DNA from: Paracyclopina nana | Lineage: Eukaryota > Arthropoda > Copepoda > Cyclopoida > Cyclopettidae | Length of the DNA: 64,000 bases | Assembly: GCA_019096065.1 (NCBI GenBank) | Contig: JAGUCH010000003.1 | Span: 9,672,001 to 9,736,000, forward strand | Direction of reading: 5' to 3' | Translations under genes and position numbers: made by a program | Part shown: positions 2,846 to 52,800 of the stretch, piece by piece | Position numbering within the stretch: the stretch's first letter is position 1 | How the letters are laid out: each line of letters opens with the position of its first letter | Notes under the pieces: model-generated | Told to the model about the DNA's origin: nothing | Seen by the model: the letters and a program-made list of their open reading frames with translations, nothing else | Database searches by the model: none

Positions 2846-4919
2846 TTTTGAATACTTTTGTAGAAGTTACTTAGTCAGAAAGTAATAATGTCACTTTGTC
2901 AGCATTAGTTAAGTTGGCCATTCACTAATACTTCTACTACTATATACTAGCTTGGCCATAATAGGCACGAAATGAGGCAAGTGGAAAAAATGTTCACGCC
3001 TCAGTACATCTGAATACTGTGGATACACTGCTGTAATACTTCTTCTACTAGACGATGGGATGTATTAGGGTTATGAAACTCTTCAAGCGTGTCTTACTGC
3101 CCATTTCAACAATTAACTCAGTTTTTTTTCCTTCTGCCAAAATGCGGAGCTTTCTCCTCTCATCAGTAATTTTATTAATCCCTTTATTGTTATTATGATA
3201 TTTTTGTTCACAGTTATTTTTGGGCCTATCATTTGTACCTGAACAAATACTGCATATGCATAATACTTGGCTGCTCTAATGTGGGATATTCAGCGATTCC
3301 ATCATCATATTCGAGAAGTACCCACATTTTTATGACCTCCAAGCTCCTACTATAAAAATACTTTTTCTGGCCTCCTGGTACTTAAGTATTCAGGCATCTA
3401 TACCAACTATTTGGGCCTCCACATATACCACTTTTTACGTAATACATTCAACCGAAAATCAGAAATAGAAAATATCAATTAAACCTCATTTTCAGTGAAA
3501 ACTCCCCCCTCAGCAAATAACGAAAATTGCTATTATGACGCACGTAAAAAAGCAGTGCACTAGTGGTAAATGAGTATTGATTCACACAAAAGTACCCATT
3601 AATAAAGCAGTACGCTAATTTTTCTTACACTCAATCATTTATAATTGTTTTCCAGCCCGAAGGAAATACTGTATGTGCTTGGCTTTCTTGTCCTTAATAA
3701 TGAAAGGGCCTTTTGTGGGTTTCACCCTTAATGAGGTTCTCATCTATATACACTTACCATGGAAAAATTACGACCTTTCTTTGGCTATCGAAAAAGTACG
3801 CTAACAAATGTTTGTTGTATTAATGAGGCTTGATTTTCTGCCTCTGTTTTTATTTTCAGCATATAAAACTGGATTTTGGTTATTAATATGTAAACTGATT
3901 CTCTTATTTTGACGTAAAATTAGTTTATAGGTGAACTGAGCCACTGTAAATCCTGCCCTTGAAAACTGTTTCATTGGAGCCTGCTCCTCAAGGAAAAGTT
4001 ACTGCAAGGTGTGAATTTGGTCTATGCTTGTAAATATTTACAGAGATCTTTCTATCCTGGGATATCTTCAGTGAATGCTGCTGCTCCTGCAAAAAGTTCA
4101 GACTATCCAGACAGATAGAGAGAGAGAAGTTGTCGAAGAAGAAAACAATCTGTTCTCTGTCAACAACAAAGGTGGCTTTGTCAAACATTTGCACCACTCA
4201 TCTTCATCCTGACTTTATTTGATTGTACTGTAGCCTGGGAGCAACTTTTGCAATACTACTTCTGCTGCTTTGTAGCCTAAAAAAGTTCAGACAACTGAAG
4301 GAGCTTTCTAGCTTGCATGCATAATCCTTCGAAGCAGTAAATTCAGGGCCACCTTCCTTCACTGCTGCTACTACAGTAGATCCCCTTTTCAACAAAAGGA
4401 GCTGGCAAGTTTTAGTACATGTCCAATTTGCATCCAGGAGAGAGTGTTACTATAAAGTGAGTATCTCTCAATAAATTACCATCGTGGAACTGAGCCTCTC
4501 CTCATTCTGCGATTTAACCAGGCTCTCGTTATTTGTTTACTATTGACTTTATTTAATTTAAAGAACTTGGTGTCAGAGAATATACAGCAATACAGATTCA
4601 GGAACTGAAAGCTAAATTGTAAGATACAAACCCATTATTGTCATATTACTATTTATATTTGAGAGAATACTTTATTATGTCAAAATCAAAAAATGGTCAA
4701 AACAACAATATATTACACAATAACACTTACATCCACAAAAATCTCGACGTAAGGAAGTATCGTACTTTTTAATGTAATTTCAGTAAAGCAATCTGAAAAT
4801 TAATATAAAAGCTACCAAATAATCATCATTTTTGTCAGCTTGGCGGTGGGTTCACTACATACGGCAGTGAAGCGAAAATCGCTGTATTTTGCTGAGATTT
4901 GGCGTGCGCTCGCATCTAC

Positions 4920-19800: not shown

Positions 19801-22800
19801 AATTTGAAATTTCATGTTTTGACTTTTTGATAGTATTAATTTCCTAGAAATGCCATTTTGATAGGATTAAGAACCCCTTTTTTTGTCTGTTTTTGTTGTA
19901 TGTATTATTTTGGTATTAAATGTAATAAATACTTTGTTATTATAAATGCAGAGTGAGCAAATAGAGTTCGATTGCTGTAATTGTTCAAATACAACTGTTA
20001 TTATTTGATCTGTCATTTATTACTTTCTTATAGATATTTGTTAATCAATCAAATACTTATATTAATAAATACAATTAGAACATATATAATATGATGGTGA
20101 GTGCCATGTTTGATGAAAAGTACAATCTAAATTTTATTTATTTAATATACACTTTGTTTTATCAGTTAAATACTTTAATGTTTTTATTCGTATTGTGTTG
20201 ATATATATGTATATATTTCCAAGAAATGTCATTTTGAGCTTATTTAATTTACATTATATTACTGAATAAGCACACGGTAAGGAAAATACAGCATGCGGCT
20301 CTGAAACTGCACACAGCGGGCTGCTCTGAAGTAGTAAATAAACCGGACGAATTGGCTGTAGCATGGTTGCATTTTCGGCACTTCACCCTGTATACTAATT
20401 AAGTCATTTACTAAAGCACAAACTTAGGAACTTTTCATGCCTTAGATTTGAGGGCTCAATTCTCTACTTAAGAGAACTGTATCCATTCATCAGACTAGAT
20501 GATTGGTAATCATATATAGTTATGTGAATTATAAGCACTTAAGCCAATATCTTCTTTCCTAACAAATACATTTGATTTTTTATGAAGTTTTACTTATTTT
20601 ATGAGAAATAAGAATGAATATCATTATGAATAGCATATTTAGGTATTTACAGCTAAAAGCTATAAATACTTTTTTTCAAAATCTGTAACAAAATAAAAGT
20701 TATTTACAAGAGAATTTTCACAAAGTAATGATATGTAAGCAGCGCCATCTCTGAATAATTTACTAAATTTAATTTAAGAAAACAGATATTATACTGATTT
20801 ACAACTGACCAATTAAATCAGGCTGGTACTGATTAAAGACTGACTAAGTATGAGCTTCACTATTTCGGATGGAACAGCATTAGTAGAGACTGTGGAAATA
20901 GCATTAGTACAAAAAAAGTACTGACTTTTATTCTTTGCTGTTTTCGAAGCCACTCAGAAAGAGTGCACAGTCAGGTATGGCAATAGTAGTAAAATAGCAT
21001 GCCCACTTTGTAAGCTGCACTATTTCGGATGGAACAGCATTAGTAGAGACTGTGGAAATAGCATTAGTACAAAAAAAGTACTGACTTTTATTCTTTGCTG
21101 TTTTCGAAGCCACTCAGAAAGAGTGCACAGTCAGGTATGGCAATAGTAGTAAAATAGCATGCCCACTTTGTAAGCTGCACTATTTCGGATGGAACAGCAT
21201 TAGTAGAGAATGTGGAAATGGCATTAGTACAAAAAAAGTACTGACTTTTATTCTTTGCTGTTTTCGAAGCCACTCAGAAAGAGTGCACAGTCAGGTATGG
21301 CAATAGTAGTAAAATAGCATGCCCACTTTGTAAGCTGCACTATTTCGGATGGAACAGCATTAGTAGAGAATGTGGAAATGGCATTAGTATGAAAAAAGTA
21401 CTGACTTTTATTCTTTGCTGTTTTCGAAGCCACTCAGAAAGAGTGCACAGTCAGGTATGGCAATAGTAGTAAAATAGCATGCCCACTTTGTAAGCTGCAC
21501 TATTTCGGATGGAACAGCATTAGTAGAGAATGTGGAAATGGCATTAGTATGAAAAAAGTACTGACTTTTATTCTTTGCTGTTTTCGAAGCCACTCAGAAA
21601 GAGTGCACAGTCAGGTATGGCAATACTAGCAAAATAGCATGCCCACTTTGTGAGCTGCACTATTTCGGATGGAACAGCATTAGTAGAGACTGTGGAAATG
21701 GCATTGGAATGCATTTAAACGGGAAAAAGTATACATTTTTATAAATAGTCTTTAAATAAAAGTTCAGAGAGAATAACCAATAATAAATATGATGACTGCT
21801 GACTTCACACTTTGAGATTATTTATTTGAATATTTTTATGAATACTGATTTAAAACTTCTTATTTTATTTTACATAATACAAATAAAATATAGATCATTT
21901 TTGAATTAATTAAAAAAAAAGATATAATACTTATTGAAAAATGTGAAAAATATTGATATAGTACTACTTTCATTTATGGAAATTTTTATTACAAATATAT
22001 AATTATATACCAATTTAAATAAATCAGTATTGATAATATATTTAATGTAAGGAATACTAATTAAATACTAAATAAATACTAATTTTAAAAATAATTATTT
22101 TAATAAAATAATTATGCTTGTCATCTTTATTTTCACTATGTCATCATTAAGGATAATAATTAAGCGTATATTCATTGAAAAATTTAATGTAAGACTATAG
22201 GTCCAAATTGCAAAAAACGGGATATTTAAAAAAATCATATCTCCAATAGTACAAACATTACAAAATTTTTAAAATGCTATTCTTCATACATTAGCTATAA
22301 AGAATATGATTTCATTATTATTTTGTTAAAATTCGTAAATAAATATTACATATCGATAAAATACAGATTAAAACCTGCTAGTTTGTCTGGTTGGGAGTTT
22401 GCTGGGAGCAACTTTGGCAATCTCAAGGGCCAGATGATCCACCCTCAAATTAAGCCTCAACTACCTTTTTTGCACACACATACAAAAAGTAAATAATGCT
22501 AGGCATGAAATTGGATCAGAAGAAAAATTGCCATGCTTACTCTGAGAAAAAGAGAGTCATACTGCTTGGTCCCTTGGGCAAAAAAGAGGGAAACTGTTTG
22601 CTGGTATATATAGGGTATACCAGTGCTTCTATGAAGATGCGACAAAAAGTGATAACCTTGTTGTGTGATTTATAGCAGAAGATGAATTTGTGGAGAAGCT
22701 CCTCCACTTCTTCCATGCATTAGAGATACCAAAGCCAAGATGGAAGACTCTTCTTCCATTCTTGGTGCTTAAGAAAACAAGACAGCTGAAGAAGCAGGAA

Positions 22801-43800: not shown

Positions 43801-46800
43801 TACGCAATTTGCAAAAAAAGTGACTGAAATCCCTGCCTTTTTGTATTTGGCTCCTCATTTTTTTGCAGAGCTGTATCCCTGATGTGTGCCAAAATATGCT
43901 TTTTCTGAACGTAGTAGGCCGTTCTCATATTGCCGGAAAAAGCTAAGCTAAGGTAAAAATAGCTAAGCTAAGGTGAAAATAGCTAAGCAAACGCTCAACA
44001 TTTCAAGAAAAGTAGCTACTTTTTGTGAATGTTGAGCGGAAAAACCGGTTTTTGTTGCATAATTTCTACCTTAGCTTAGCTAATTTTACCTTAGCTTTTT
44101 CCGGCAATATGAGAACGGCCTGTATCTGAAAAATGAAAAGGAAAATCCAGCCTGTATTTCATTACTTCCAATGTCACAGATTGCTCTTTTGGCTATTAGA
44201 TATGTCTCAGTTGTAAATGTAGGTCTTGCTGTCATGATCATCAGGCGCATTTCACGAACTAGTAGGCATTAGGTACATGTATCCACGTGGATGCATGTCC
44301 TGCAATGCGACTTTTCCCCAATTATTATTTCTTTCTCTTTAGCCAAGGCCAGCAGGGGAAAAAAGCCAGAAAGCTCCAGATTTTAACTGATACACTTTTC
44401 TTTGCAGGTGGATGCATACCCGGCTGCAGTCACATTTAGCTGGTACTTCAACAGCTCTGAGCACAAAGAGGAGCTAAAAGAAGAGAGGTTCACAACAAAC
44501 GGACTCGTTTCCACGCTGAACTTTGCCCCAACAACTAATCAAGATTATGGCACTTTGTATTGTCTGGGAGAAAATGCGGTCGGCCATCAAGCTGAGCCCT
44601 GCACATTTAAAATTGTGCCCACGGGTATGACAACATAGAAACATGTAGTACTGGCTCAAAAGATAATGTGCAGTTCATCTACATGGTTTTTCATTAGCTT
44701 GATTGCAATCGAGCAGTTTTTTGACGACTTTTTCATTTTGGATGTAAGATACATCTTTTTTTGTCCTAGTAATGTTCGCAAATCAAATTGGAGTGGGATG
44801 AGACTCGATTGTCAGTGAACGAATTTACTTTCAGTTTTCAAAACTGAAAGCGTTGGCAAAAGTAAAATATTTCTCAGCGTCAAGATTTGCATAGATGAAC
44901 GTTGCAGGCATTGTGATAAAAAGAAAAGAACTTTTTTGTTTATTTCCCCAAAGAGGGGAATTTTGTGAGCTTCAAAACTTTTTCCTTTTGAGCCTAAACA
45001 TTCAAAAAGCGTTTTCTCTTTTCGTGAAAAAGGCCGGCCAGCGCCCCTCTCAGAATGCAGGGTTTTGAACATGACCCAGCCTTCGATAAAAGTGGGCTGT
45101 CAAGAAGGCTTCGACGGTGGCCTGCCTCAGACTTTCATGCTTGAAGTCTACGAAAACGAACAATTGAAAACGAAGATGACAAACCAGCAGCCCTACTTCG
45201 AAATCTCTCAAGTGGATTACAGCCAACCCGTCAAGTTGTTCGTGTTTGCGCAGAACGCTAAAGGATCCAGTGAACCCTTCATTATTGAAGAAACCTTCGG
45301 GAAAGCTAGAAAGCATGCCGTCGAAGGTACGATACCATTTTTTAATAATTACTCACTCGTCTATGAGCCATATTCATAGCTAGCCGATACTTTCGGTTCT
45401 GACGTAAAATACAATAATTTTTGACCGAGTAATGTTGCAAAATCAAATTGGAAAGCAATGAGACTCGATTGTCAACAGTCGAATTTGCTATCAGTTCTCA
45501 AAACTGAAATTGATGCCAGAAGATAAATGTTTCCTCACATCAAGATTTGAAAAGTACGGTCCAAATTGCAATTATGTTGACCACGAAATCATGGTTTTAT
45601 CAATAATAAGCTAGAGAGGTCATAAAGAATGTAGGAGGAAGTGAAGAAGCCCCATGCAACATAAAAACTTTATTGCTTTATACCATTGCACTAATGTGTC
45701 ACTTGCACCCATGTTTTCGTCGTTCCTGTCTAATTGCTTGCTGACTTTAGCTGAGCCATTTTACTCTCTTCCTGTTGTTGCTACCTTGGCAATATTAGTA
45801 GCGCAGATCGGTAGTGGCCAGGTGTCCAGCGACACAGAAATCGCGAAACTTGTGCCATACAGGCCAGCCCAGAGTAGGCACACAGAATGACTTGAGCCTA
45901 CAATTGGTGGCACAGTGGCTCAGTGGCGCTGGGGTCAATGACCAATAATAAAGTTCGCGCACGCTTGTGGCTTGTGGGCATGTGGATGCCATTTTTTTAT
46001 TTGAAACTTCATGTGGCGCAGTGGCTCAGTGGCGCAGAGGTCAATGGCCATTATTAAAGTCCGCACTCGCTTGTGGGCATGTGGATGCCATTTTTTATTA
46101 GAAACTTCATGTGGCACAGTGGCTCAGTGGCGCAGAGGTCAATGGCCATTATTCAAGTCCGCGCTTGCTTGTGGGCATGTGGATGCCCTTTTTTCTTTGA
46201 AACTTCATGTGGCGCAGTGGCTCAGTGGCACAGGGGTCAATGACCAATAATAAAGTTCGCTCGCGCACGCTTGTGGCTTGTGGGCATTTGGATGCCATTT
46301 TTTATTAGAAACATCATGTGGCGCAGTGGCTCAGTGGCGCAGAGGTAACCGGCCATTAATAAAGTCCACGCACGCACGCGTGTGGCTTGAGGGCATGTGG
46401 ATGCAATTTTTTTATTTGAAACTTCATGTGGCGCAGTGGCTCAGTGGCGCAGAGGTCAATGGCCATTATTAAAGTCCGCGCTTGCTTGTGGGCATGTGGA
46501 TGCCCTTTTTTCTTTGAAACTTCATGTGGCGCAGTGGCTCAGTGGCACAGGGGTCAATGACCAATAATAAAGTTCGCGCACGCTTGTGGCTTGTGGGCAT
46601 TTGGATGCCATTTTTTATTAGAAACTTCATGTGGCGCAGTGGCTCAGTGGCGCAGAGGTAACCGGCCATTAATAAAGTCCACGCACGCACGCGTGTGGCT
46701 TGAGGGCATGTGGATGCAATTTTTTTATTTGAAACTTCATGTGGCGCAGTGGCTCAGTGGCGCAGAGGTCAATGGCCATTATTAAAGTCCGCGCTTGCTT

Positions 46801-49800
46801 GTGGGCATGTGGATGCCCTTTTTTCTTTGAAACTTCATGTGGCGCAGTGGCTCAGTGGCACAGGGGTCAATGACCAATAATAAAGTTCGCGCACGCTTGT
46901 GGCTTGTGGGCATTTGGATGCCATTTTTTATTAGAAACTTCATGTGGCGCAGTGGCTCAGTGGCGCAGAGGTAACCGGCCATTAATAAAGTCCACGCACG
47001 CACGCGTGTGGCTTGAGGGCATGTGGATGCAATTTTTTTATTTGAAACTTCATGTGGCGCAGTGGCTCAGTGGCGCAGAGGTCAATGGCCATTATTAAAG
47101 TCCGCGCTTGCTTGTGGGCATGTGGATGCCCTTTTTTCTTTGAAACTTCATGTGGCGCAGTGGCTCAGTGGCACAGGGGTCAATGACCAATAATAAAGTT
47201 CGCGCACGCTTGTGGCTTGTGGGCATTTGGATGCCAGTTAATAAAGTCCGCTCCACAGTGGCTCAAAAAGCCTTCTGGACGCGTACGGGAAAAAAACTCC
47301 CTCAGCTCAAAAATATAGTTGCCAAAAAATATGCTAGCTTCAGTTAGTTTTTTCACTAGGAGACTAGCCTGGTCAAAACTAGATGAAACAAAGGCCATAG
47401 TTTGGACTTTGTCAAAAAATGCAATTTTGCTCAGGCAATTATTCACGTTACGCGAGTTTCGCTCCTAGCTTAAAAAAATGTTCAAAAAACATGCTAGTTT
47501 CAGTTCTTATTTTGGACTAGGAGACTAGCCTGGTCAAAACTAGATGAAACAAAGGCCAAAGTTTGGCCCTAGTTAAAAAATGCAATTTTGCTCAGGCAAT
47601 TATTCACGTAACGCGAGATTCGCTACTAGCTCAAAAAAAGTTGCCAAAAACATGCTAGCTTCAGTTAGTTTTTTCACTAGGAGACTCGACTGGTCAAAAC
47701 TAAATGAAACAAAGGCCAAAGTTTGGTCTTTGTCAAAAAATGCAATTTTGCTCAGGCAATTATTCACGTTACGCGAGTTTCGCTACTAGCTCAAAAATAG
47801 TTGCCAAAAAATATGCTAGCTTCAGTTAGTTTTGGCACTAGGAGACTAGCCTGGTCAAAACTAGATGAAACAAAGGCCAAAGTTTGGCCTTTGTTAAAAT
47901 ATGCAATTTTGCTCTTGCAATTATTCACGTAACGCGAGTTTCGCTCCTAGCTTAAAAAAATGTTCAAAAAACATGCTAACTTTAGTTAGTTTTTTCACTA
48001 GGAGACTAGCATGGTCAAAACTAGATGAAACAAAGGCCAAAGTTTGGACTTTGTCAAAAAAAATGCAATTTTGCTCAGGCAATTATTCACGTTACGCGAG
48101 TTTCGCTCCTAGCTTAAAAAAATGTTCAAAAAACATGCTAACTTCAGTTAGTTTTTTCACTAGGAGACTAGCCTGGTCAAAACTAGATGAAACAAAGGCC
48201 AAAGTTTGGACTTTGTCAAAAAAATGCAATTTTGCTCAGGCAATTATTCACGTTACGCGAGTTTCGCTACTAGCTCAAAAATAGTTGCCAAAAAATATGC
48301 TAGCTTCAGTTAGTTTTGGCACAAGGAGACTAGCCTGGTCAAAACTAGATGAAACAAAGGCCAAAGTTTGGCCTTTGTTAAAAAATGCAATTTTGCTCTT
48401 GCAATTATTCACGTAACGCGAGTTTCGCTACTAGCTCAAAAAAAGTTGCCAAAAAATATGCTAGCTTCACTTAGTTTTTTCACTAGGAGACTATCCTGGT
48501 CAAAACTAGATGAAACAAAGGCCAAAGATTGGCCTTTGTAAAAAAATACAATTTGGCTCTTGCAATTATTCACGTTACGCGAGATTCGCTCCTAGCTAAA
48601 AAAAATGTTCAAAAAATAATCTAGCTTCAGTTAGTTTTGGCACTAGGAGACTAGCCTGGTCAAAACTAGATGAAAAAAAGGCCAAAGTTTGGCCTTTAAC
48701 AAAAAATGCAATTTTGCTCTTGCAATTATTCACGTTACGCGAGTTTCGCTCCTAGCTAAAAAAAGTTGCAAAAAATATGCTAGTTTCAGTTCTTATTTTG
48801 GACTAGGAGACCAGTCTTGTCAAAACTAGATGAAAAAAAGGCCAAAGTTTGGCCTTTGTCAAAAAATGCAATTTTGCTCTTGCAATTTTTCACGTTACGC
48901 GAGTTTCGCTCCTAGCTTAAAAAAATGTTCAAAAAACATGCTAACTTCAGTTAGTTTTTTCACTAGGAGACTAGCCTGGTCAAAACTAGATGAAACAAAG
49001 GCCAAAGTTTGGCCTTTGTCAAAAAATGCAATTTTGCTCTTGCAATTATTCACGTTACGCGAGTTTCGCTCCTAGCTCAAAAAAATGTTCAAAAAATATG
49101 TTAGCTTCACTTTGTTTTTTCACTAGGAGACTAGCCTGGTCAAAACTTTGGCCTTTGTTTCATCTAGTTTTGACAAGACTAATCTCCTAGTGAAAAAACT
49201 AACTGAAACTAGCATATTCTTTTTTATGCTCTGAATCAAAGCAAAAAAGTCAATAGACCAAGAAGTCAAATTAGTCCAAAAAGTCCAATAGCGCGCGGAC
49301 TTTATTATTGGCCGTTGACCTCTGCGCCACTGAGCCACTGCGCCACATGAAGTTTCAAATAAAAATTGCCATTCACATGCCCGCACCAATAGCGCGCGCG
49401 GACTTTATTATGGGCCGTTAACCTCTGCGCCACTGAGCCACTGCGCCACATGAAGTTTCATATAAAAATTGCCATTCACCTGCCCGCACCAATAGCGCGC
49501 GCGGACTTTATTATAGGCCGTTGACCTCTGCGCCACTGAGCCACTGCGCCACATGAAGTTTCAAAGAAAAAATGGCATTCACATGCCCACCAATAGCGAG
49601 CGCGGACTTTATTATGGGCCGTTGACCTCTGCGCCACTGAGCCACTGCACCACATGAAGTTTCAAAAATAAAAATTGCCATTCACATGCCCGCACCAATA
49701 GCGCGCGCGGACTTTATTATGGGCCGTTAACCTCTGCGCCACTGAGCCACTGCGCCACATGAAGTTTCATATAAAAATTGCCATTCACCTGCCCGCACCA

Positions 49801-52800
49801 ATAGCGCGCGCGGACTTTATTATAGGCCGTTGACCTCTGCGCCACTGAGCCACTGCGCCACATGAAGTTTCAAAGAAAAAATGGCATTCACATGCCCACC
49901 AATAGCGAGCGCGGACTTTATTATGGGCCGTTGACCTCTGCGCCACTGAGCCACTGCACCACATGAAGTTTCAAAAATAAAAATTGGCATTCACATGCCC
50001 ACCAATAGCGAGCGCGGACTTTATTAATGGCTGTTGACCTCTGCGCCACTGAGCCACTGCGCCACATGAAGTTTCAAAGAAAAAATGGCATTCACATGCC
50101 CACCAATAGCGAGCGCGGACTTTATTATGGGCCGTTGACCTCTGCGCCACTGAGCCACTGCGCCACATGAAGTTTCAAATAAAAATTGGCATTCACATGC
50201 CCACCAATAGCGTGCGAACATTATCAATGGCCGTTGACCTCTGCGCCACTGAGCCACTGCGCCACATGAAGTTTCAAATAAAACTCATTCATTTGAGTCC
50301 TATGCCTGACTGATGGCACAAATTTCGCGATTTCTGTGTCGCTGGACACCTGGCCACTGCCCGCAGATCACGACTCCCAAATGACAAGCCAACAACTCTG
50401 AGAGTATAATTGCATATATTGTCTTCTTATGTCAACTTAGCAGTCGTTCCCTGGTGGCAAAACAAGATTGGTCCTACATAGTATATGTGCATTATTATTG
50501 GCTGTCATGATCCATGATGTCCCTTGGGGGTGCAGTTACAAGAAGAAGTAAAAGGGGAGCAACTTGTATGTATGATGATGATCCATGACATGCCTTTTCT
50601 CCTCATACTCCCATCATAAGTGGCCTTATTCCCTGAATGACAGCTGACATGGCCATGCTTTTTGCTATGGATGCATTTTTCAAATGGCTTTCTTTTCCAC
50701 TCAAAATTAAACTCAAGTCGACGACGACGACCATTTTTGCCAGCAAAGCCTCTTACATATTCGGTTTTCAAATCCTGCTCAGCCCTGAATATGTTCATGC
50801 ATATTTTGTGCAGCTTACCTTGGTTCCCCTGGAAAAAAGTCAAAAAATTGGGAAAGTTGATTTTGCATACGTGAAAAATCTTGACGCAGAGAAATATTTT
50901 ACGTTTGACTACTATTTCAGTTTTCCAAACTGAAAGCAAATTGTCATGTTGACAATCGGTGTTCATTTATTTTCAATTTGATTTCAACACATTACTCCGT
51001 CAAAAAAAATCAGTTCACGTCAAAAAGAAGACTGTACAGCTTTCTTGTCGTAGATGAAAATAATGATAATTGTCAGCCCCAAGGGAGAAAGTGGGTCAGT
51101 TATTGGAGGGCTTTCTTCCTTTCACGTCATAAAACGAGAGAGAGAGTTCACTTGATGGTTTGCTTTTTTGAGATCAGACATTGACCAGAATGTAGCAGTG
51201 GTGAGAGCAATCTTGGCGCAGAATATGACACTTTTCACCCGAAAGAAAAGTAAAAAAGAAGCAGCTGCGACATAAAAAGTTGGAAACGATAACGACTGAC
51301 AAAAAGAGAGGAAGAAAGCTCTGACGACGACGGGAGAAAAAGTGAAAAAGTGTTGCTCTGATCATTATTATGTCAACGAAAAAATGTGTGCATGGATTTC
51401 GCGGATTAATAATCCCTTCGTGTATACATTGCAGGCGTGACGGATTCGAAAGCTGTGAAGGGGAGCAGTAAATCCATGCTTGATTGGACAGGAGCATCAG
51501 CATCCACCAGCTCAATTGTCGTCATTGTCACTGGAATTGCAACAGGAATCGTTTTCACAGTCCTCCTCGTCTGTCTTTTTGTAACTTGCAGACAAAAGGT
51601 AAGAGTAGACTAGCGCCTAAAGCCTACGCACCCAAAGAGCTGACACTTTTTATTTTCGATACGATAAAAATTTTTTTTCTATTTTTGCCTTTTAAGAACA
51701 CCTGCTCCGTAGGATGCTCCGTATTTGCCAAAATTTGCTGGTTTTTGATGACTTTTAGTTTACCTGTTTTGGTCAAAATTGGCCCAAAAATGGATAAAAT
51801 TCAATAGAAAAACAGGTATGATTTAATTATTTTTTCAAGGCATTTTGCCAAAGCGTTGCATATCATGTACCAAGTGAAACAAGGCCAAAAATTGAAAATA
51901 CATAAAGAAGCTTTAAACAAAAAAATTAATTTTTTTGGTAGCTAGCTCTGTCAGCTCTTTGTGAGGGTAGGCTTTAATGGCATATGTTGATGGCATGGGG
52001 TCCTAAAAAAGAGACCTTTTTCTCCACAGACTCGACGTTCGAATTTGGCACGTGGAAACAACTCTTCTTCACCGAGTGCATCTTTGAGGCGAAAAATGTC
52101 GAATAATGGCTGCGATGCCATTGTTGACCATGGCTATGAGAAGGAGGAATGTGTGAAACCACGAGGCTCTTCCACAGCCTCTTCCAATGCAACTACAACC
52201 ATTGGAGATGGTAAGAAGTTGCACACACATTATTTCCTTCAACCGTCAAGTGAATGCATCCATTAGTCCTGCTTTCGATGGTCAGATACGTCGCAAAACT
52301 TTCCAAAACTTTCCCAACCGCAATGAAAGCATTCCTTCAGTTTGGAACGGGTTTCTTGGCACAAAAACTGTTTTATTTGGACTATTTACCACCGCCGTTT
52401 TCTTAAGGGAGCCCAAACTTAGTTATGCTCCTTCTTCTTCTTCTCCTTCTGTTTGGGCCTCTTTTTTGGCGCAGTCCCAGATGACCAGCAAAGGCTTTTC
52501 AGCGAAAATAACGCAAATGGGACTCATTCGTACTTTTTCATAAGATGAAGATTCATCTTTTTCCTATATTTTGTGTCAGGAGGTGCTCATCTCATTGGCC
52601 AAAGAAAGCAAGTTTCACAATTATTAATGGCTTTCTAATTTGACTTGGAAATTCTATTCAATGGATACATAATCAAAACTCCTCAACATTGTGTATTTTG
52701 TGAAAAAGTAAACCATCACTTCTAATTAATATGTATAAAAACTAGAAGGAAATGAATGTCAGATTAAGAGAAAATTCCGTTCTTTGGCATTGGATACATT

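Follow-up and report, generated by a model that had tools for sequence, protein, structure and literature searches.

The genome of the copepod Paracyclopina nana contains a complete non-coding foldback element, made up almost wholly of repeat units, at positions 45810-50361 of the 64,000-nucleotide stretch analysed here (C3:9672001-9736000, hereafter the window). Given the shared termini, the 8-bp target duplications, an empty site, the recurring arm-core-arm plan and the lack of coding capacity in the window copy, we contend that this element is very probably a complete, non-autonomous foldback DNA transposon of the cut-and-paste type, and that the clan to which it belongs comprises at least three families, its own being family I. 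It is this clan, more than the single copy, that gives the finding its interest. Within one genome, the clan presents 129 termini, sharp 8-bp duplications and nested copies with an empty site, and in it the arm satellite is confined to its family and the core satellite occurs elsewhere too.

Architecture of the element

The element is bordered by two identical copies of the 8-bp target duplication CGCAGATC (45802-45809 and 50362-50369), exactly as originally predicted. Inside them lie the left unique end (45810-45906, plus strand), whose outermost 49 bp form a terminal inverted repeat (TIR; GGTAGTGGCCAGGTGTCCAGCGACACAGAAATCGCG...), and the right unique end (50284-50361, minus strand), whose outer 49 bp form the other; the identity between the two is 96% over 49 bp. 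The left arm (45907-47236, plus strand) is built of units of about 100 bp with a 313-bp higher-order repeat, and Tandem Repeats Finder reported a period of 98 (12.8 copies) as well as one of 313. The right arm (49291-50283, minus strand), inverted relative to the left, is built of units of about 103 bp (period 103, 9.7 copies) with a 309-bp higher-order repeat. The strongest repeat lag of the left arm was 313 and that of the right arm 309, the latter with an exact 300-bp match; opposed arrays of about 100-bp units and the 313-bp repeat had been correctly predicted, and the 308 bp given for the right arm was one base off.

Between the arms, the core array (47304-49147, plus strand; period 160, 11.5 copies) consists of different, 160-bp units, which are also found in family II elements and in other places. 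The left arm-core spacer (47237-47303, plus strand) is present in some other copies at 95-98%, and the right spacer holds, at its inner end, an inverted piece of a core unit (49139-49222, minus strand; positions 3330-3413 of the element) that matches at 92% in the minus orientation.

Long inverted arms of tandem repeats, one structural test for the foldback class, are present in the window element: when left and right arms are paired, 81.6% of 1,111 columns match and the longest perfect stem reaches 51 bp, and a duplex of the outer 600 nt scored -887.5, where 20 mononucleotide shuffles averaged -275.3. A degenerate pattern of the terminus (at most 3 mismatches) matched twice in the window, both times exactly at the borders of the element, and in none of 100 shuffles. 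No open frame in the element exceeds 128 codons, and the longest stop-to-stop frame (128) falls in repeat DNA. The original prediction of an intact foldback element that lacks a transposase is thereby borne out in its ends, arms, core and duplication.

Family I copies and the empty site

Whole-genome searches, which covered 91,952,342 bases in 10 contigs, located 14 places that carry the borders of the window element. A 33-base core of the end (at most 3 mismatches) occurs at 25 sites, all in these 14 places, and its reversed control gave none. Both ends are present at 11 of the 14 (C2:54820 being entered once despite the duplication of one of its ends), and these two-ended copies range in length from 3,498 to 26,880 bp. 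Exact 8-bp duplications flank nine of the 11, and the remaining two match at seven of eight bases. The outcomes that had been named as fatal to the original prediction, namely copies with other borders or insertions lacking 8-bp duplications, were thus not what these places presented. The arm-core-arm plan recurs among the family I copies whose comparison was listed. At C2:54820-66200 (L030-L031 among the loci read), a family I end is tandemly duplicated as a 4,343-bp unit (99% over 3.5 kb), with an identical outer flank at both copies of the duplicated end.

Two family I copies are nested, by coordinates, inside family III copies (C8:2882964-2913100 and C1:15384382-15398217), both of which carry exact duplications themselves. 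When the nested C8 copy is removed and one duplication kept, the joined flanks align uninterrupted to seven stretches at four loci; aligned singly to one and the same paralogue, the two flanks share an overlap of 8 bases. This constitutes an empty site. A weaker case is C2:2641241, where the joined flanks cross the junction at two loci but one side contributes no more than 26-34 bases. Inverted ends, a duplication of fixed 8-bp length and an empty site together demonstrate cut-and-paste insertion.

The same observations bear on whether ordinary satellite arrays merely face each other here by chance, with no transposition involved. The element is indeed mostly tandem repeat, and its core repeat occurs also at places with no listed end, but the borders and duplications speak against such an arrangement, all 92 genome matches of the family I arm repeat lie inside the 14 end-bearing places, and the empty site contradicts it outright, so that we regard it as highly improbable. 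Helitrons are not known to have target duplications or terminal inverted repeats; here both are present, which places the element outside the Helitrons and Helentrons, and the duplications contradict the notion of a Helitron-like element carrying central satellite arrays. Although Helitrons with central arrays, several types of them in one element, are described in one report (PMC12628747), the probability of such an origin is close to nil.

A clan with a common end motif

The 22-base terminus (at most 3 mismatches) occurs 129 times in the genome, 66 times forward and 63 times reverse, with no occurrence of the reversed control; it is absent from the viral contigs searched. Three main types can be distinguished among the termini listed, i.e., type I (that of the window), type II (ATATCC) and type III (ATAACC). 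Judged by its terminal sequence, the window element stands for one family among at least three that have an end motif in common.

Target duplications were surveyed at the 29 end pairs whose letters were read (11 of family I, 11 of family II and seven of family III). The duplication is exact over 8 bp at 25 pairs, matches at seven of eight bases at three and is missing at one, so that a duplication of at least seven of eight bases, a second structural test for the foldback class, is found at 28 of 29. Across the 25 exact duplications, A or T occupies 83 of the 100 middle-four positions.

The family II copies at L048 and L050 have arms of about 110-bp units and a related end, GGCAGTGGCCAGATATCCAGCGCACAGAATCCCCGAAA. 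By our own count, 109 of the 118 genome matches of the family II arm repeat lie inside or adjoin a listed family II end, and the other nine, away from such ends, are at two places on C7 and in four short pieces elsewhere. The family III copy at C6:5508269-5515085 (L051, 6.8 kb) has an exact duplication, and its arms (177-1451 and 5661-6770 of L051) consist of a 27-bp repeat. The arms of family I are related to those of family II in the same orientation (score of 23 against a maximum of 15 in 300 shuffles), and the family III arm has no similarity to the arms of either.

Given these relationships, it is conceivable, though we hold it tentatively, that within one end lineage long foldback arms had two or more separate origins in unrelated repeats (the related satellites of about 100/110 bp in families I and II, the 27-bp repeat in family III) and that a single transposase moved all of these elements. 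If so, selection would act to preserve the presence of long inverted tandem arrays and not their sequence, and the clan would disperse satellite DNA, with a private arm satellite in each family and a core satellite that occurs elsewhere as well. Because the ends are shared, one enzyme is proposed for the three families: a single DDE-type transposase, supplied in trans, would recognise the shared end (GGYAGTGGCCAGRTRNCCAGCG...) and move them all. It could be argued instead that families I, II and III each have a transposase of their own and that the likeness of their ends reflects common descent only, with no cross-mobilisation. This would suit the divergence of the ends beyond the first ~22 bases and the unrelated arms of family III, but 8-bp duplications and an unchanged outer motif are common to all three families, and no transposase of any family was found in the genome searches described below; we consider separate enzymes unlikely.

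Facing family II ends were also observed 53 kb apart at C3:4075315-4128744, each with arm repeats of about 110 bp just inside, and this is possibly one giant element.

Evolution of arms and cores

Among the 143 arm units compared (anchors 85-125 bp apart; two one-ended copies contributed few units or none), 65 of 72 left and 68 of 71 right units have their closest counterpart beyond their own array on the same side of another copy. Mean unit identity across copies on one side is 0.80 for the left and 0.83 for the right, compared with 0.73 between the arms of one copy. Because units resemble those on the same side of other copies, homogenisation between the two arms does not take place, and both arms move as one unit. 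The arm arrays would expand and contract by unequal exchange or slippage, and the core array would be carried along with the element.

The 160-bp core repeat has 259 genome matches and is shared with family II and with other places. A hand count among the matches listed gave 24 places outside family I, with 10 lying between listed facing ends at most 15 kb apart, two between ends 30 kb apart and 12 without a listed end. Four core places outside family I were read (L047-L050); L047 has only the core and other arrays in the piece read, and no arms of about 110 bp were seen in the piece of L049. Beside the 160-bp array, L047 and L050 both carry arrays of 169-175-bp units, and L047 a GC-rich 133-bp array; given these further arrays, several satellites can share one place. 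When core monomers matched over nearly full length were compared, with two copies left out, those of three family II arrays showed identities of 0.89-0.95 to one another, as against 0.79-0.88 between families II and I. Because of these identities, the cores group by subfamily, and a tree of cores need not equal the end families.

Search for a transposase

The original prediction had proposed searching the genome with the element's ends, and this yielded other copies and an empty site; the autonomous partner it also anticipated was looked for and not found among the listed ends. Neither the five Mutator-like element (MULE) matches in the genome nor the 11 P-like matches lie between listed facing ends, and the clan duplications are of 8 bp as against the usual 9 bp of MULEs. 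Merlin (IS1595-type transposase) gave no genome match in a search that did detect one control genome, whereas the searches for the hAT dimerisation domain and the KDZ transposase, also with no genome match, gave none in the controls either. The ends of hAT elements typically start with CAGNG directly at the duplication; in the clan, GG precedes C/TAGTGG next to the duplication.

Several candidates were rejected. The end near the MULE gene at L039 points away from that gene, and the P-like match at C2:10559259, 35 kb inside the unpaired end C2:10524576, was not counted as enclosed. Outside the arrays of the family III copy L051, no stop-to-stop frame exceeds 122 codons. In the three long family I copies (C8, C9:2160873 and C9:4805952), considered as possible autonomous elements, seven of 10 pieces of open reading frames (ORFs) match Pfam and three match nothing; the matches include domains of retroelements in two of the copies and, in the remaining one, a viral fusion glycoprotein. 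Two of these copies hold identical long direct repeats, of 929 bp in one and 195 bp in the other, which were read as long terminal repeats (LTRs), and no such long direct repeats were shown for the C8 copy.

The inserts in the two C9 copies are observations in their own right. The family I copy C9:4805952-4819940 contains a Monjiviricetes viral fusion glycoprotein ORF at C9:4808546-4811041 (L026:3147-5642, minus strand; its two pieces match with E values of 6.6e-56 and 4.9e-13), flanked by the identical 195-bp direct repeats about 10 kb apart; this insert was noted as an LTR-type element whose envelope gene is like that of a negative-strand virus. At C9:2160873-2187752 (L023-L025), the 929-bp repeats lie about 22 kb apart and pieces of the insertion match reverse transcriptase, RNase H and integrase, making it a very long, recent LTR retrotransposon. 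At two further loci, repeats of a similar-looking motif around TGTCGGACATTTTGCAACT flank a transposase-like gene: at L052 (C1:7811400-7815400) a P-like gene with a THAP-like ORF, and at L036 (C6:2027300-2037200) a MULE gene. These loci could represent additional foldback families, in this case equipped with a transposase.

As to the type of enzyme, we can only infer an order of likelihood, with Mutator-type ahead of P-type and P-type ahead of Merlin-type. By analogy with Galileo, the arms may provide extra transposase binding sites. A second, sub-terminal copy of the inner half of the TIR, a possible binding site, was detected at 15 of 30 ends (p <= 0.02), and neither end of the window copy is among them.

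A number of points weigh against the interpretation of the window element as a member of a mobile clan. No transposase was found between listed facing ends, nor was any of the copies read shown to encode one, and trans-mobilisation is a matter of inference only. The end pair C8:1299212/1303967, apparently inside satellite DNA, is the one lacking a duplication, and three of the 14 family I places are one-ended (C1:15387965, C7:5519780 and C4:149971). Furthermore, core monomers are not cleanly split by end family, since the two family I core subgroups (the window type and the C1:3386868 type) are 0.79-0.88 alike, no closer to each other than to family II.

Comparison with known foldback systems

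The statement in the original prediction that the element matches no recognised family requires amendment in that a close structural precedent exists, besides the membership in a clan set out above. The closest known system is Tetris of Drosophila virilis (PMC4079207), which has TIRs made of tandem repeats, a variable middle domain and 8-10-bp duplications. Like the clan, Tetris follows the foldback plan, with TIRs composed of an outer flank and a tandem-repeat domain around a variable non-coding middle, with repeat numbers that differ between copies and with no autonomous copy found. Its arm unit is of about 220 bp and only three complete copies were reported (PMC4079207), as against arms of about 100/110-bp and 27-bp units in the clan. 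The core of 160-bp arrays, the at least three end families and the strictly 8-bp duplications set the clan apart from Tetris by description.

Galileo of Drosophila, a member of the P superfamily, shares with the clan long TIRs, internal tandem repeats of variable number and two arms that change independently (PMC3573991), and its arm repeats hold transposase binding sites (PMC3688188). It differs in its 7-bp duplications (PMC3573991), which are of 8 bp in the clan, and in having known autonomous relatives with a P-type transposase, whereas none was found between the listed ends of the clan. The Tm1 Mutator/Foldback elements of Meloidogyne likewise have composite TIRs in which the number of tandem repeats varies, but mostly 9-bp duplications, 14-bp repeats and, in some copies, a MULE transposase (PMC3169594). 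A satellite within a miniature inverted-repeat transposable element of a frog is also known (PMC12628747).

Foldback elements have so far been linked to the birth of satellites in single cases, such as Tetris. With the same ends joined to different arms, both the formation of foldback arms and the spread of satellites by transposons become testable. The TU elements of the sea urchin also combine the foldback plan with 8-bp duplications, and have short outer repeats. A literature search did not find the terminus as text, nor any publication with these ends or such a clan, most subscription journals being outside its scope.

Host gene and other observations

The element occupies 4,552 bp of a 6,108-bp phase 1 intron (45327-51434, plus strand), for which splice sites and joining frames agree. 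The upstream exon ends at 45326 (...GTCGAAG|GTACG) and a transmembrane exon begins at 51435 (after ...TTGCAG|GC). Exons on the plus strand match immunoglobulin domains in Pfam, two above the curated cut-off and the rest below it, and the exon preceding the intron matched no Pfam family or solved structure. A multi-immunoglobulin transmembrane host gene is thus supported; the location within an intron was predicted correctly, and the name 'sidestep-like' comes from the reading of exons, Pfam backing the immunoglobulin domains only. The element would be spliced out along with the host intron, and a long RNA hairpin formed from it in the pre-mRNA is possible. More generally, opposed arm pairs are plausible seeds of inversions and of intronic double-stranded RNA.

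Elsewhere in the window (20853-21705), a second array with a 160-bp period (5.3 copies, 98% matches) is unrelated by sequence to the core repeat, and no match to it was present in any other locus read. Long TTAGG arrays, which point to an arthropod genome, were observed at two of the six contig-end stretches read.

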